Of a stretch of DNA of 64,000 bases, positions 8,046 through 52,755 are shown piece after piece (the stretch's first letter is position 1; each line of letters starts with the position of its first letter). The stretch spans positions 1-64,000 of the forward strand of contig NZ_JALJCW010000006.1 in assembly GCF_023634025.1 (NCBI RefSeq), written 5' to 3'. The stretch is from Hanstruepera flava (GTDB lineage Bacteria > Bacteroidota > Bacteroidia > Flavobacteriales > Flavobacteriaceae). The notes beneath the pieces are model-generated. The model did not search any database and had not been told where the DNA came from. It was given only the letters and a program-made list of their open reading frames with translations. The position numbers and the translations under genes are program-made.

Positions 8046-9926
8046 GTCTTCTACATCACTTCCTTCGTTTGATGCTCCTGCATCACCTTCTGGTTGTGCC
8101 TCTGCTCCACCTTGTTGAGCTTCAGCTTGTGCCTTGTACATCTCTTCGCTAGCTACTTTCCATGCTTCATTAATTTTCTCTAAAGCAGGATCAATAACAG
8201 CTAAATCTTTTGTTTCGTAAGCTTTCTTTAACTCTTCAAGCGCTTCTTCAATTGGTTTCTTTTTATCATCAGATAATTTATCACCAAATTCTTTTAATTG
8301 ACTTTCTGTTTGGAAAATCATAGCATCGGCTTGATTCAACTTATCAGCTGTTTCTTTTGCTTTAGCATCAGCTTCTGCATTGGCTTCTGCATCAGCTTTC
8401 ATTTTTTGTATTTCCTCTTCGGTTAATCCTGAAGATGCTTCAATTCTGATATCTTGTTTTTTACCAGTCGCTTTATCTTCAGCAGACACTTTAATAATAC
8501 CATTGGCATCAATATCAAATGTTACTTCAATTTGAGGTGTACCTCTTCTTGCCGGTGGAATACCATCTAAATGAAAACGTCCAATAGTTTTATTATCTGC
8601 TGCCATTGGCCTTTCACCTTGTAAAACGTGAATCTCTACCGATGGTTGATTATCTGCTGCTGTTGAGAATACCTGACTCTTTTTTGTAGGTATGGTTGTA
8701 TTGGCTTCAATTAACTTGGTCATTACGTTACCCATTGTCTCAATTCCTAATGACAATGGTGTTACATCTAATAACAATACATCTTTTACATCACCTGTTA
8801 ATACACCACCCTGAATTCCAGCTCCCAAAGAAACTACCTCATCTGGATTTACACCTTTACTTGGTTTTTTACCGAAGAATTTTTCTACAGCTTCTTGTAC
8901 TGCAGGAATACGTGTAGAACCACCAACAAGAATAATCTCGTCAATATCACTTTTTGATAAACCTGCTGCTTTTAATGCAGACTCACAAGGCTCAATAGTA
9001 CGCTTAACCAAATCGTCAATTAATTGTTCAAATTTAGAACGTGTTAAAGTACGCACCAAGTGCTTTGGTCCGCTAGCGGTAGCCGTAACGTAAGGTAAAT
9101 TGATTTCGGTTTGAGCAGAAGATGACAATTCAATTTTTGCTTTTTCTGCAGCTTCCTTTAAACGCTGTAAAGCCATTGGGTCTTTACGCAAATCCATATC
9201 TTCTTCAGCCTTAAACTCATCTGCTAACCAATTGATGATCTTTTCATCTACGTCATCACCTCCTAAATGTGTATCTCCATCTGTTGATAATACCTCAAAT
9301 ACACCATCACCTAATTCTAAAATAGAAACGTCGTGCGTACCACCACCAAAATCAAATACAACAATTTTTTGGTCTGTTCCTTTTTTATCTAAACCATAAG
9401 CTAATGCGGCTGCAGTTGGTTCGTTAATAATTCTTCTAACTTTTAATCCTGCAATTTCTCCAGCTTCTTTAGTAGCTTGACGCTGACTATCATTAAAATA
9501 AGCAGGAACTGTAATAACTGCTTCGCTTACATCTTGGCCTAAATAATCTTCAGCTGTTTTCTTCATTTTTTGAAGAATCATAGCTGATAATTCTTGAGGT
9601 GTATATAAACGACCGTCTATATCAACTCTAGGTGTATCGTTATCACCTTTTACTACTTTATATGGTACACGTTCTGCTTCTTTTTGAGATTCAGAATACT
9701 TGTTCCCCATAAAACGCTTAATTGAATAAACAGTTTTTGTTGGATTAGTTACAGCCTGACGCTTCGCTGGATCGCCAACTTTTATTTCACCACCTTCTAC
9801 GAAAGCGATTACTGAAGGTGTTGTGCGCTTACCTTCTGCATTAGGAATAACAACGGGTTCGTTACCTTCCATTACAGATACGCATGAATTTGTTGTTCCT
9901 AAATCGATTCCAATAATTTTACTCAT
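8022..9926 (-). CDS. dnaK: Chaperone protein DnaK (Hsp70)
   Basis: 634 residues, full length for DnaK. ATP-dependent folding chaperone of the cytoplasm, working with DnaJ and GrpE (not in this window). Visible are the N-terminal phosphate loop [16 protein letters not shown], the second phosphate motif [18 protein letters not shown], the adenosine motif [13 protein letters not shown], the substrate-binding domain start ([20 protein letters not shown]), a helical lid, and the acidic C-terminus ending EDVDFEEVK. The last codons and the stop come from a short repeat insertion that duplicated the gene's end; the product is nevertheless unchanged at its EEVK terminus. It is transcribed alone, and a sigma70-like promoter with TGTCA half-sites lies upstream. 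Confidence 0.97.
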
Positions 9927-50054: not shown

Positions 50055-51419
50055 ATGGAACAGAAAACTACTTTTCACGATTTAAAATTAAACACACCAT
50101 TATACAATGCGTTGGATGATTTAGGTTTTGTAACACCTACTCCTATTCAAGAACAAGCATTTAATGTGGTGGCGTCTGGAAAAGATGTTGTTGGTATAGC
50201 ACAAACCGGAACTGGAAAGACCTTTGCCTATATGCTGCCTATACTTCGAAATTTAAAATTTTCAAAGCAAGACAATCCGCGTGTTTTGGTATTGGTTCCA
50301 ACACGAGAGTTGGTTGTTCAAGTTGTTGAAGAAATTGAAAAACTAGCTAAATATATTAATGTTCGTGTCTTGGGTGTTTATGGAGGTGTTAACATCAACA
50401 CCCAAAAGCAAGCAGTTGCCCAAGGTTTGGATATTATTGTTGCAACACCTGGACGTTTATATGATTTAGCTGTAAGTCGCGTATTACAACTAAAGTCTAT
50501 TCAGAAATTAGTGATTGATGAAGTTGATGTTATGCTAGATTTAGGTTTTAGACACCAGCTCATCAATATTTTTGATATTCTACCAGAGCGAAGGCAGAAC
50601 ATCATGTTTTCGGCAACCATGACTGAAGATGTTGATGATTTAATTACCGATTTTTTTATTGCTCCAGAACGGGTTTCTATTGCAGTTTCTGGAACACCTT
50701 TAGAGAATATTGCTCAAACTAAATATACCGTTCCTAATTTTTACACCAAGCTTAATTTATTGGTTCATTTACTGAAAGATAACGAGACTTATAATAAAGT
50801 TTTGGTGTTTGTAGCCTATAAAAAAATGGCTGACCGTTTATTTGATGCGCTTGAAGAACAGTTTCACAATGAAACCTGTGTAATACACTCCAACAAAACG
50901 CAAAACTATCGTTTACGCAGCATAGAGCAATTTCAGGAAGGCGAGCATCGCATCTTGGTAGCAACCGATGTTATGGCACGTGGTTTGGATATTGACAACA
51001 TCTCGCATGTTATTAATTTTGATACGCCAAACTTCCCAGAAAACTATATGCACAGAATTGGTAGAACGGGTCGTGCCGAAAGAAAAGGTAACGCTCTGTT
51101 ATTCCATACCGAAAAGGAAACTGAAGCTGTAGAGCGTATTGAGTCGTTGATGAACATGACTATTCCAGAAATTCCTTTTCCTGATGAAGTTACTATTTCA
51201 ACCGAATTGATTGAAGAAGAACGGCCTCAAATAAAGGAACGCAACAATCCGTTAAAACGAAAGCTTGACGACGAAGTTGGTCCAGCCTTTCATGAAAAGA
51301 AGGATAAAAATAAAAAGGTTAATCTAGGTGGCTCATACAAACGAGAAATTGCCAAAAAGTATAAAAAGCCTAAAACTAGAGGTGATAAGAATTATAATAA
51401 ACGGAATAAAAGAAAATAA
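50055..51419 (+). CDS. DEAD-box RNA helicase (DEVD variant)
   Basis: 454 residues. ATP-dependent RNA helicase with both RecA-like domains: Q motif FVTPTPIQEQAF, motif I AQTGTGKTFAYMLP, PTRELVVQV, TPGRL, motif II VIDEVDVMLDLGF (DEVD instead of DEAD), motif III SAT, motif V VATDVMARGLDIDN and motif VI HRIGRTGRAERKG. The C-terminal tail from about 395 is very basic (KKYKKPKTRGDKNYNKRNK), as in RhlE/CsdA-like proteins that bind rRNA. Likely roles are ribosome assembly or RNA turnover. Monocistronic; the short repeats begin right after its stop. Confidence 0.93.
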   Translation: MEQKTTFHDLKLNTPLYNALDDLGFVTPTPIQEQAFNVVASGKDVVGIAQTGTGKTFAYMLPILRNLKFSKQDNPRVLVLVPTRELVVQVVEEIEKLAKYINVRVLGVYGGVNINTQKQAVAQGLDIIVATPGRLYDLAVSRVLQLKSIQKLVIDEVDVMLDLGFRHQLINIFDILPERRQNIMFSATMTEDVDDLITDFFIAPERVSIAVSGTPLENIAQTKYTVPNFYTKLNLLVHLLKDNETYNKVLVFVAYKKMADRLFDALEEQFHNETCVIHSNKTQNYRLRSIEQFQEGEHRILVATDVMARGLDIDNISHVINFDTPNFPENYMHRIGRTGRAERKGNALLFHTEKETEAVERIESLMNMTIPEIPFPDEVTISTELIEEERPQIKERNNPLKRKLDDEVGPAFHEKKDKNKKVNLGGSYKREIAKKYKKPKTRGDKNYNKRNKRK

Positions 51420-51426
51420 TACTGCT

Positions 51427-51640
51427 GTCATTCCTACGAAGTCAATAACACTCAAGGTTTTGTCATTCCTGCGTAGGCAGGAATCCAGAGATTTAACAGA
51501 GTTAATCAACAAATATTAGGCACTCAACAACACTAACCTCATGTCATTCTTGTGAAGACAACAAGACATTACTTTGTCATTCCTACTTTTCGACTTACGC
51601 TCAGGATAAATTCCAGCAGGAATCCATTTTCAGAAAATTA
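51427..51640. repeat. Cluster of REP-like repeats, several decayed copies
   Basis: Repeats of the family starting GTCATTCCT or GTCATTCTT occur at about 51427, 51462 (intact), 51542 and 51575. A TTTCGACTTACGCTCAGG core lies at 51588-51605, and CAGCAGGAATCC at 51614-51625. Only the copy at 51462 is a clean palindrome. No gene is seen in this 234-base stretch between the helicase and the GIY-YIG gene. Confidence 0.75.
51462..51486 (+). repeat. Left inverted repeat of the GIY-YIG unit
   Basis: 25 bases whose core is a hairpin: ATTCCTGC (51465-51472), loop GTAG, GCAGGAAT (51477-51484). It is the exact reverse complement of 51976-52000 on the other side of the nuclease gene. Confidence 0.9.
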
Positions 51641-51653
51641 CTAATTTAGAAGA

Positions 51654-51965
51654 ATGCATAAAAACATTCACCAATACTACCTATATATACTTTCAAACAA
51701 ATACAAAGGCACAATATACATTGGCGTTACAAATGATTTAGAGCGACGTGTGTTTGAGCACAAAAACAAACTAGTAGAAGGTTTTACCAAAAAATATGGA
51801 TTAAACAAATTGATGTATTTTGAGTCCTTTCAATATGTTAACGACGCCATTAAACGTGAAAAGAATATGAAAAAATGGAAGCGCCAATGGAAAATAAATT
51901 TAATTGAAGTAGATAATCCTGATTGGGATGATTTATCAAAAGATTGGTCTTATTTAATTGATTGA
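51654..51965 (+). CDS. Single-domain GIY-YIG nuclease
   Basis: 103 residues, the length of the stand-alone GIY-YIG (UPF0213/YhbQ-like) proteins. The motif is visible as YYLYILSNKYKGTIYIGVTNDLERRVFEHKN split over residues 7-37: YLYIL, then TIYIGVT, the catalytic Arg in LERRV and a following His. The metal-binding Glu is likely in YFESF or AIKREKNMKKWKR. Such proteins cut DNA, but few have been tested. The start codon has an AT-rich leader containing a decayed repeat. The gene stands between inverted palindromic repeats, with the right one 11 bases past the stop. Confidence 0.9.
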   Translation: MHKNIHQYYLYILSNKYKGTIYIGVTNDLERRVFEHKNKLVEGFTKKYGLNKLMYFESFQYVNDAIKREKNMKKWKRQWKINLIEVDNPDWDDLSKDWSYLID

Positions 51966-51975
51966 TATAAAAACT

Positions 51976-52000
51976 GGATTCCTGCCTACGCAGGAATGAC
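51976..52000 (-). repeat. Right inverted repeat of the GIY-YIG unit
   Basis: 25 bases, exact reverse complement of 51462-51486. Hairpin arms ATTCCTGC (51978-51985) and GCAGGAAT (51990-51997), loop CTAC. It could also act as a weak terminator for the nuclease gene. Confidence 0.9.
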
Positions 52001-52016
52001 AATAAGCGGAATAAAC

Positions 52017-52076
52017 GCAAGTGATTTTTTGGTTTTGTTTATCGGTTCGTGTTTGAGCAGTAACGGAATCACTTGC
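52017..52076. repeat. Inverted repeat in the gene-free region after the GIY-YIG unit
   Basis: Ten-base perfect inverted repeat GCAAGTGATT (52017-52026) / AATCACTTGC (52067-52076) with a 40-base spacer. A second small pair ATCGG / CCGAT follows further right. It lies 3' of the SnoaL-like gene on the minus strand. Function unknown. Confidence 0.5.
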
Positions 52077-52170
52077 ACATCGGCATATTACAGGGCCTTA
52101 TATAAAAGCAAAATCGGTTTACATCTGAACGTAATCCGATATTGTTTGTGCACATTAATATGGGTAGTTT

Positions 52171-52755
52171 TTACTGTTTTTGAATCACTTTTAATTTTCG
52201 TTTCATTCTAATGGCTATAAATGTTGGAATTAATGCGATTAACAATCCAATCATTAATCCCTTTAATGTAAATTTCAACGTTTGTGGTGTGTCGATGTCA
52301 TGACGCTGATTCCAAAACTCAACTATTTTACCTTCTTCATTAAACCTCATTACATTAATTATATAAAAAGGTTCTGCGGCAATAAATCTCCCTAGAATTG
52401 TTTTGGTGCTTTCCGTTGTAGCTGTCCAATGTGTAGCAACTAGGTCGCCCTCTGCGACTTGATAATTGATTTGACCTCCAAGTTCTACGTTTTTCCAAAA
52501 GAAATCAGCAATATACTTTTGCTCTATAGCAGGTTCAGTGACACCCTTACGGTCTCCTATGTCATGAACAACATATTCACTTGCCACGTATTTGGCATAT
52601 TTGTCCGTATTATTAGTGAACCAAAGATCCTGATAAAAATTACGAGCAATTCTTTTATTTCTTTCTTCAAGGTTTGTTGTTGAAAGATTGACCTGTTGCG
52701 AATGAGCGGTAATGGGAACTACCAAAACTGCATAAATGATAATTAAATGCTTCAT
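52171..52755 (-). CDS. SnoaL/NTF2-like protein with signal peptide and C-terminal membrane helix
   Basis: 194 residues. Signal peptide MKHLIIIYAVLVVPITAHSQ. The SnoaL-like ester cyclase fold (polyketide cyclase/NTF2 superfamily) is suggested by NKRIARNFYQDLWFTNNTD, YVASEYVVHDIGD, VAEGDLVATHWTATTE and IVEFWNQRHDID. A membrane helix (GLMIGLLIALIPTFIAIRM) plus basic tail closes the chain, so the domain would face the periplasm. No substrate can be named. Upstream on the same strand is an AraC-type regulator (86 bases away) that may control it. Confidence 0.75.
   Translation of the reverse strand: MKHLIIIYAVLVVPITAHSQQVNLSTTNLEERNKRIARNFYQDLWFTNNTDKYAKYVASEYVVHDIGDRKGVTEPAIEQKYIADFFWKNVELGGQINYQVAEGDLVATHWTATTESTKTILGRFIAAEPFYIINVMRFNEEGKIVEFWNQRHDIDTPQTLKFTLKGLMIGLLIALIPTFIAIRMKRKLKVIQKQ

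Follow-up and report, generated by a model that had tools for sequence, protein, structure and literature searches.

The window analysed here, 64,000 nucleotides of a Hanstruepera flava contig (NZ_JALJCW010000006.1, positions 1 to 64,000), contains a small GIY-YIG nuclease gene with an intact ORF that lies between two copies of a short palindromic repeat (Table 1). The two copies form a perfect inverted repeat (29 of 29 bases, 485 nt apart). Read from the outside in, each arm starts with an unpaired tag, goes on with a stem of 8 bp around a loop of 4 nt and closes with a short tail (TTGTC-ATTCCTGC-4 nt-GCAGGAAT-CCAG), and the 20-nt hairpin core (ATTCCTGC-4 nt-GCAGGAAT) lies at 51465-51484 and 51978-51997. 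GTAG is present in the repeat only as the 4-nt loop; the tag is TGTC. A first-pass annotation of this DNA had reported 25-base repeats at 51462-51486 and 51976-52000 that are exact reverse complements, each a hairpin, enclosing one intact single-domain GIY-YIG gene. All of this held, and the full perfect repeat is longer, at 29 bp. The right repeat had also been placed 11 bases past the stop codon; it does adjoin the gene, but 10 bases separate the stop from the right 25-mer.

Table 1. Features at the GIY-YIG locus (positions in the window)
Feature	Position	Strand	Remarks
DEAD-box helicase gene	50055-51419	+	left neighbour of the GIY-YIG unit, named by eye
Direct repeat, left copy; 3' end of the DEAD-box helicase gene	51389..51420	+	direct-repeat family D2
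Decayed left-half repeat copy	51426..51444	+	reference copy of direct-repeat family D1; intact left repeat 84% identical to it
Left terminal repeat, CGTC-type REP: TGTC tag, stem ATTCCTGC, loop GTAG, stem GCAGGAAT, CCA tail	51460..51488	+	tag faces away from gene
Decayed left-half repeat copy	51542..51560	+	79% identical to the 51426 copy (family D1)
Split repeat copy: TGTCATTCCTAC ... GCAGGAATCC, ~29 nt of other sequence (TTCGACTTACGCTCAGGA...) between the halves	51575..51625	+	by eye; right half paired in inverted-repeat search
Single-domain GIY-YIG nuclease gene, 103 aa, conserved GIY-YIG residues	51654..51965	+	PF01541, E = 9e-15
Right terminal repeat, perfect inverted copy, identical loop	51974..52002	-	tag faces away from gene
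Direct repeat, right copy, possible decayed target duplication; overlaps right REP end	51994..52025	+	family D2, 78%; score 14.5 vs null maximum 15, weak in this genome by itself
Unrelated gene	52171-52755	-	right neighbour of the GIY-YIG unit

A search for the core at up to 3 mismatches gave 2 matches in the window against 0.15 expected, both with 0 mismatches; 3 of 100 shuffled windows likewise reached two matches at this tolerance. As single-stranded DNA, the repeats folded with -7.7 and -7.5 kcal/mol (z -5.7 and -5.9), and none of 200 shuffles was equally stable. The window-match count, a reversed-pattern control and the folding against shuffles led us to reject a chance origin of the repeats. 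The right REP resembles a terminator-like site on the minus strand, and no described structured RNA was matched over 51300-52200 (0 Rfam matches at the gathering threshold). In the split copy, the middle of the repeat is replaced by the insert with TTCGACTTACGCTCAGGA, which we take to resemble another widespread dispersed repeat, so that this copy is possibly one repeat inserted into another.

In Pfam, the window protein matches PF01541, T5orf172 and, at E 0.63, DUF6945. There was no Y1 (HUH tyrosine) transposase family among these Pfam matches and no known transposase among the profile matches. Residues Y11, Y22, G24, H36, E69 and N88 are invariant in 58 sequences and R32 is present in at least 90% of them; we assume that the GIY-YIG residues Y, Y, R, E and N have the catalytic roles. 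With this domain and these putative catalytic residues, the protein falls within the GIY-YIG superfamily. Its predicted structure (pLDDT 92.3) matched the UPF0213 fold 1zg2 best, followed by Slx1 and the UvrC N-domain, with only 1zg2 at E < 0.001, and the nearest solved sequences are likewise the UPF0213-type single-domain proteins 1zg2 and 1ywl. Both Pfam and the structure model indicate a single 103-aa domain with no separate DNA-binding domain. There were weak matches to phage homing endonuclease and group I intron endonuclease models. Two other assignments were rejected: an anti-phage defence gene (PADLOC matches were weak, best E 0.0057) and a phage gene (none of 50,697 phage records gave a match at E 1e-5). 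Existing annotation names such genes by family only or as "excinuclease ABC subunit C".

Tagged repeats around other GIY-YIG genes

In the 3.09-Mb genome there are 9 exact copies of the 24-mer GTCATTCCTGCGNAGGCAGGAATC and 0 of its reversed control. We located the 20-nt core at 14 places, and at 5 of these one of three GIY-YIG genes lies within 200 bp; by simple arithmetic, ~0.014 core copies would be expected within 350 bp of those genes. Nine PF01541 matches are present in this genome. The ATTCCTGC repeat lies on both sides of the window gene, on both sides of a second GIY-YIG gene (L012, with inverted copies on its two flanks) and on one side of a third (L010), the other side of which holds a divergent palindrome. 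By eye, L013 and L015 lie within arrays of a different repeat starting GTCATTCAGA and L011 adjoins a third repeat type; no repeats were visible by eye in the flanks of UvrC (L016), of a long nuclease of a second kind (L018) or of L017. Since different GIY-YIG proteins in one genome have different repeats, the repeat pattern is gene-specific. An oddity confined to one locus was rejected, because further GIY-YIG genes of the genome carry repeats and L012 is framed too.

We then turned to 60 genomes, counting that of the window. A homologue of the window protein (E <= 0.001) was present in 35 of them and the core repeat in 17; the reversed control pattern gave zero matches. For the framing of relatives we used a de novo test that is blind to the motif and scores the best ungapped inverted repeat between the 250 bp on either side of a gene. 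In a first sample of 63 GIY-YIG genes in 60 stretches, selected from the homologue matches in the 60 genomes, a score of at least 13 was reached by 29 of 63 GIY-YIG genes versus 13 of 747 other genes of the same stretches, and by 5 of 183 controls of up to 180 aa. A second sample comprised the best 80 of at least 541 relatives in the genome collection, picked by protein similarity alone (L120 in this sample is the same place as L058 in the first set). Here 61 of the 80 scored at least 13 versus 12 of 332 controls, and two of the top-scoring controls were GIY-YIG genes themselves. The second sample included Winogradskyella, Algibacter, Kordia, Arenibacter, nine Bradyrhizobium, Polaromonas and Desulfosarcina as well as Ignavibacteria, Omnitrophota, Chloroflexota and several candidate phyla. 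Thus inverted flanking repeats are commoner at these genes than at others, as the first-pass annotation had anticipated.

The orientation of the repeats was biased. When both a tag and a clean hairpin were required, 47 of 80 second-sample loci had tags pointing outward on both sides versus 4 of 328 controls, one of which is a GIY-YIG gene. The corresponding counts in the first sample were 13 of 63 relatives versus 1 of 688 controls; the low figure of 13 reflects the several repeat classes whose palindromes are longer or imperfect. When any tagged hairpin up to 300 bp away was accepted, the counts were 71 of 80 loci versus 42 of 328 controls (second sample) and 22 of 63 versus 29 of 688 (first sample). 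In the 80 loci, upstream tags were outward in 57 cases and inward in 24, and downstream tags outward in 61 and inward in 12. In Bradyrhizobium, two units (L147, L156) have terminal inverted repeats of 43-45 nt with one mismatch, and in this genus the left and right REPs can differ in the stem, which is unusual for a simple transposon. Recognisable flanking repeats are absent in some members of distant subclades. Among 21 units with intact ATTCCTGC ends (L120 excluded), left and right loops agreed in 12 versus 4.7 expected (0 of 5000 shuffles were as high), so the two ends evolve together or arose together.

A plasmid collection gave 33 records with a relative, from which 11 regions were selected for different organisms, without control genes. 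Outward tagged repeats lie on both sides of the gene in 7 of the 11 (Azospirillum lipoferum 4B, N. gonorrhoeae, Novosphingobium, Sphingobium, Rhizobium CIAT894, Shinella and Neorhizobium), a tagged repeat lies on one side in 2 (Photobacterium and Aeromonas), and no tagged repeats were found in the remaining 2 (Planktothrix and Spirosoma). In additional scans, L199 had them on both sides, L200 downstream only and L201 upstream in inward orientation only. The tags are CGTC and TGTC in the plasmid set and CCTC in S. meliloti and R. tumorigenes. In S. meliloti Ak57, the GIY-YIG gene lies among CCTC-tagged dimers, which we take to be RIME elements; the tagged hairpins around the gene in the N. gonorrhoeae record are presumably dRS3. 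On the Planktothrix plasmid, the gene (L241, 992-1276) is located between an MmeI-type restriction enzyme and DISARM drmA, with no tagged repeats within 400 bp. Three plasmid-labelled records (CP090106.1, NZ_CP119140.1 and NZ_AP026896.1) are 2-5 Mb long and chromosome-like.

Repeat copy number, dimers and protein clade

Copy number of the tagged repeat GTCATTCCTGCNNNNGCAGGAATC was surveyed in 249 Flavobacteriaceae genomes. Of the genomes with a nuclease scoring at least 140 bits, 19 of 20 have the repeat (mean 11.7 copies, median 10) versus 47 of 229 others (mean 1.09, median 0); a rank test on repeat number at this split, with kinship ignored, gave 6e-16. The 140-bit cut-off was chosen after the scores were known, and looser cut-offs gave 26 of 38 versus 40 of 211 (at least 101 bits) and 45 of 101 versus 21 of 148 (E <= 1e-20). 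The correlation between repeat number and presence of the nuclease proposed in the first-pass annotation is therefore seen. That annotation had also reasoned that repeats equally abundant without the nuclease would speak against its reading. Against the reading, 5 of the 148 genomes without a relative at E <= 1e-20 (G123, G137, G158, G198 and G258) carry at least 5 copies. These five hold 6-15 copies of the ATTCCTGC repeat, which may reflect recent loss of the nuclease or another enzyme. In one genome with a close relative (G076, where that gene has an internal stop), the repeat is absent.

Repeats also occur in pairs. Among the matches listed, pairs less than 600 bp apart comprised 19 with tags outward, 7 with tags inward and 1 direct; the 19 outward pairs include some that frame GIY-YIG genes. 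Among the matches listed, 9 of 10 pairs spaced 44-75 bp apart had tags outward, and the lone inward pair of the ten (62 bp, G023) lies inside an array of GIY copies. Thus, inverted REP dimers are dispersed in these genomes, as REPINs are. A REPIN-like dimer and the two ends of a GIY-YIG unit alike have their tags outward.

We then compared repeat type with protein clade. Repeat-class labels were taken from the flanks of 136 of 143 proteins (those shorter than 75 aa were dropped), with the classes defined after inspection of the flanks. The tree comprised 135 proteins (L120 excluded), 117 of them labelled and 18 without a recognised repeat that stayed outside the label counts; as a tree of short proteins, it has 60 of 132 inner branches unresolved. 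It required 19 label changes versus 50-59 in 200 shuffles (mean 55.9). When labels were shuffled only within the 12 genomes that hold several types, 26-40 changes were needed and 0 of 200 shuffles reached 19; repeat type therefore follows protein clade and not merely genome. Because the classes were set post hoc and the 140-bit cut-off was chosen with the scores in hand, neither the clade test nor the copy-number test was blind. The classes CATTCAGA, TTGCGAGG and GTCGAAGG, which occur at other GIY-YIG clades, are longer or imperfect palindromes and may lie outside the strictly defined CGTC REPs.

Slots with and without the gene

Among relatives within the genus, the window site is occupied by the same unit in one genome (G001), by a solo repeat tagged on both sides and no gene in another (G004), by a decayed repeat in a third (G003) and by no repeat in a fourth (G002). 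The end of the helicase gene holds a GIY-YIG unit in four more genomes, in the same orientation in L110 and L118 and in the opposite one in L111 and L117. Close relatives of the window protein also occur elsewhere, at sites unrelated to this one, next to a LytTR-type gene, trpB/trpA, ksgA and others (neighbours named by eye). The gene is common to several genera at one slot, with losses, so its movement is not frequent. In the trpB-trpA neighbourhood (named by eye), GIY-YIG units with different repeat types are present in different genera (L034, L044 and L119, also L126 and L128), and the site may therefore be a hot spot.

At the helicase site, the 3' end of the helicase gene is repeated beyond the unit as 26 perfect bp in G001, ~50 bp with 3 mismatches in L118 and ~52 bp with 4 mismatches in L111; this repeat is weak in the window and in G004, and it is absent beyond the unit in L110 and L117. 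It is a possible target duplication, long and variable: the direct repeats at this site range over ~26-52 bp, with no fixed length among the sampled loci. Seven strong direct repeats flank units overall (L111, L113, L114, L116, L149, L175 and L058; L120 excluded). Five of these were discounted as target duplications: (i) those of L113 and L116 adjoin tandem paralogues, (ii) that of L114 reflects a tandem gene duplication, and (iii) those of L149 and L175 contain repeat units. With five of seven explained otherwise, a target duplication is counted only at the helicase site (L111) and possibly at L058. The direct repeats of L149 and L175, ~30 and 107 bp long, carry pieces of tagged repeat and lie on both sides of the gene.

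An intergenic slot in Bradyrhizobium was followed in 60 genomes, in 9 of which the whole dimer-GIY-dimer query was matched. The layout was measured in 23 of the 60, and 21 of them are listed. Among these 21, four hold the same dimer without the gene (G294, G295, G323 and G333), nine hold a quite different CGTC dimer, and three have no recognisable REP (G288, G286 and G291). In G299 the gene lies between two single inverted REPs, and G311 is a hybrid. Slots with and without the gene are thus found both here and at the helicase site, which bears out the expectation of the first-pass annotation that empty sites exist. In close Rhizobium plasmids we saw no clean gain or loss of a repeat dimer; one 50-kb stretch of pSymB compared between two S. 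meliloti strains has one dimer, present in both. At L069 (G023:C20), an intact gene has two truncated GIY-YIG copies next to it, at 9365-9527 and 9648-9852. Both carry one identical internal deletion and are interspersed with REPs; they are a possible step from the full unit to a gene-less dimer.

Possible roles of the nuclease

Di Nocera et al. (2013, PMC3733652) divide REPs into a GTAG and a CGTC superfamily. By their description, a CGTC REP has the tag CGTC, with TGTC or CCTC as frequent variants; its stem of 8-9 bp nearly always starts with AT, its loop measures 4-5 nt and its tail is mostly CCA, and most of these REPs are dimers. The authors place them in five phyla, between and inside genes, with Bradyrhizobium, Azospirillum lipoferum, S. 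meliloti, Neisseriae, Rickettsia and the phylum Bacteroidetes among the hosts. The window repeat has the tag, the AT-starting 8-bp stem, the GTAG loop and the CCA tail of this description. The difference lies in the enzyme. The authors report having checked tyrosine and other transposases near CGTC REPs, and describe the REPs as without associated transposase genes; these "apparently lack a dedicated transposase" (PMC3733652). Here, a GIY-YIG gene is associated. The term GIY-YIG has 0 occurrences in the text of PMC3733652, and full-text searches, judged by the titles and abstract openings of the matches listed and with most subscription journals and preprints outside their coverage, returned no literature tying GIY-YIG to REP-type repeats. 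ATGAC, which according to PMC3767692 marks rickettsial RPE-4, -6 and -7, is the REP tag read on the opposite strand. RIME elements of rhizobia (mentioned and cited in PMC2573895) and dRS3 of Neisseria (named in PMC2267715) have a parallel here, in that tagged-hairpin repeats also surround the GIY-YIG gene in S. meliloti Ak57 and the N. gonorrhoeae record.

The likeness to REP/RAYT systems, REPtrons and REPINs extends to short palindromes with an unpaired 4-nt tag, to one small dedicated gene between inverted REPs, and to dispersed singles and inverted dimers. However, RAYT is an HUH Y1 transposase and the REP tag linked to it is GTAG, whereas the enzyme here is a GIY-YIG protein (PF01541) and the tags are TGTC, CGTC or CCTC. 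The window system would work like REP/RAYT but is not a member, because it has neither the HUH enzyme nor the GTAG tag. With insertion sequences the unit shares terminal inverted repeats (29 bp in the window), but a known transposase is absent from it. GIY-YIG homing enzymes exist (the I-TevI type and free-standing genes of phages), and Penelope-like elements carry GIY-YIG as well. In these, too, a GIY-YIG nuclease is tied to mobile DNA, but the window unit is framed by REPs and has no intron, reverse transcriptase or extra DNA-binding domain.

We consider that the window protein is probably the dedicated nuclease of a CGTC-type REP family, RAYT-like with different chemistry, with a putative role in recognition and mobilisation of the repeat. 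The first-pass annotation had proposed a REP-like system with a different enzyme, and the flanking repeats, the copy number, the clade tracking and the match to CGTC REPs support that proposal. The full element would be REP>-GIY-<REP with tags outward, and dispersed single REPs and tags-outward dimers would be non-autonomous forms derived from it, in the relation that REPs and REPINs have to RAYTs. The enzyme would recognise the hairpin of its clade as a palindromic duplex, a cruciform or a single strand and would nick it at or near the tag; host repair or replication of the nicked ends could then copy the unit or the dimer to new places. Slx1, a branched-DNA nuclease, is among the nearest solved folds and thus fits structure-guided nicking. 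A broader reading, which would make this a new class of mobile repeat system and which we regard as evenly poised between right and wrong, is that small GIY-YIG nucleases are the mobilising enzymes of the CGTC REP superfamily across bacteria (the apparent rhizobial RIMEs and neisserial dRS3 included), each clade recognising its own hairpin and copying by nicking instead of by HUH tyrosine chemistry, with dimers left as non-autonomous units. The parts shown here are the association, the orientation, the specificity of clade for repeat, the copy-number correlation, the conserved residues, the gene-less slots and the concerted ends.

The main rival is a homing endonuclease without an intron, in which the gene copies itself into REP dimers by cutting gene-free ones and being copied in by repair, while the REPs spread otherwise and serve as landing pads. 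The Bradyrhizobium slot, with a single dimer where there is no gene and two direct dimer copies around the gene, is what such homing would give; GIY-YIG homing enzymes are known, and the window protein weakly matches homing and group I intron endonuclease models. We nevertheless think it unlikely. Landing pads need neither a repeat number that follows the nuclease nor a repeat type that tracks the clade, single REPs and not dimers often flank the gene (the window, L054, L110 and G299), and the second DNA-binding domain of known homing enzymes is absent.

Next comes a host or domesticated structure-specific nuclease that trims or resolves REP cruciforms, or is autoregulated by its flanking hairpin terminators, without spreading REPs. 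The UPF0213-like and, more weakly, Slx1-like fold and the terminator-like right REP on the minus strand are in keeping with such a role, and TnpA-REP itself is termed a domesticated transposase in PMC8266576. This explanation seems to us improbable to a greater degree than homing, since regulation needs neither outward tags on both sides nor matching loops, and it does not need multiple non-homologous sites, truncated copies among REPs or, within one genome, several paralogues that each have a repeat type of their own. Finally, a passenger, that is, a short gene unrelated to the repeats that was caught between them and carried or inverted by host recombination, would account for the two orientations at the helicase site, as expected of inverted-repeat recombination, but it is very improbable and was rejected, because control genes of the same loci are rarely framed, short ones included, and the specificity of clade for repeat persists when labels are shuffled within genomes.

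Returning to the dedicated nuclease of a CGTC-type REP family, Di Nocera et al. did not settle whether an enzyme spreads CGTC REPs, or which one (PMC3733652). A clade-matched GIY-YIG partner puts a name to the enzyme and to the substrate of each clade, provides natural controls in the form of gene-less slots and of clades with different repeats in one genome, and thereby makes the question of how CGTC REPs spread directly testable. If true, the REP problem would have a second solution with no relation to RAYT, and the retention of several tiny GIY-YIG genes in many such genomes would be explained.
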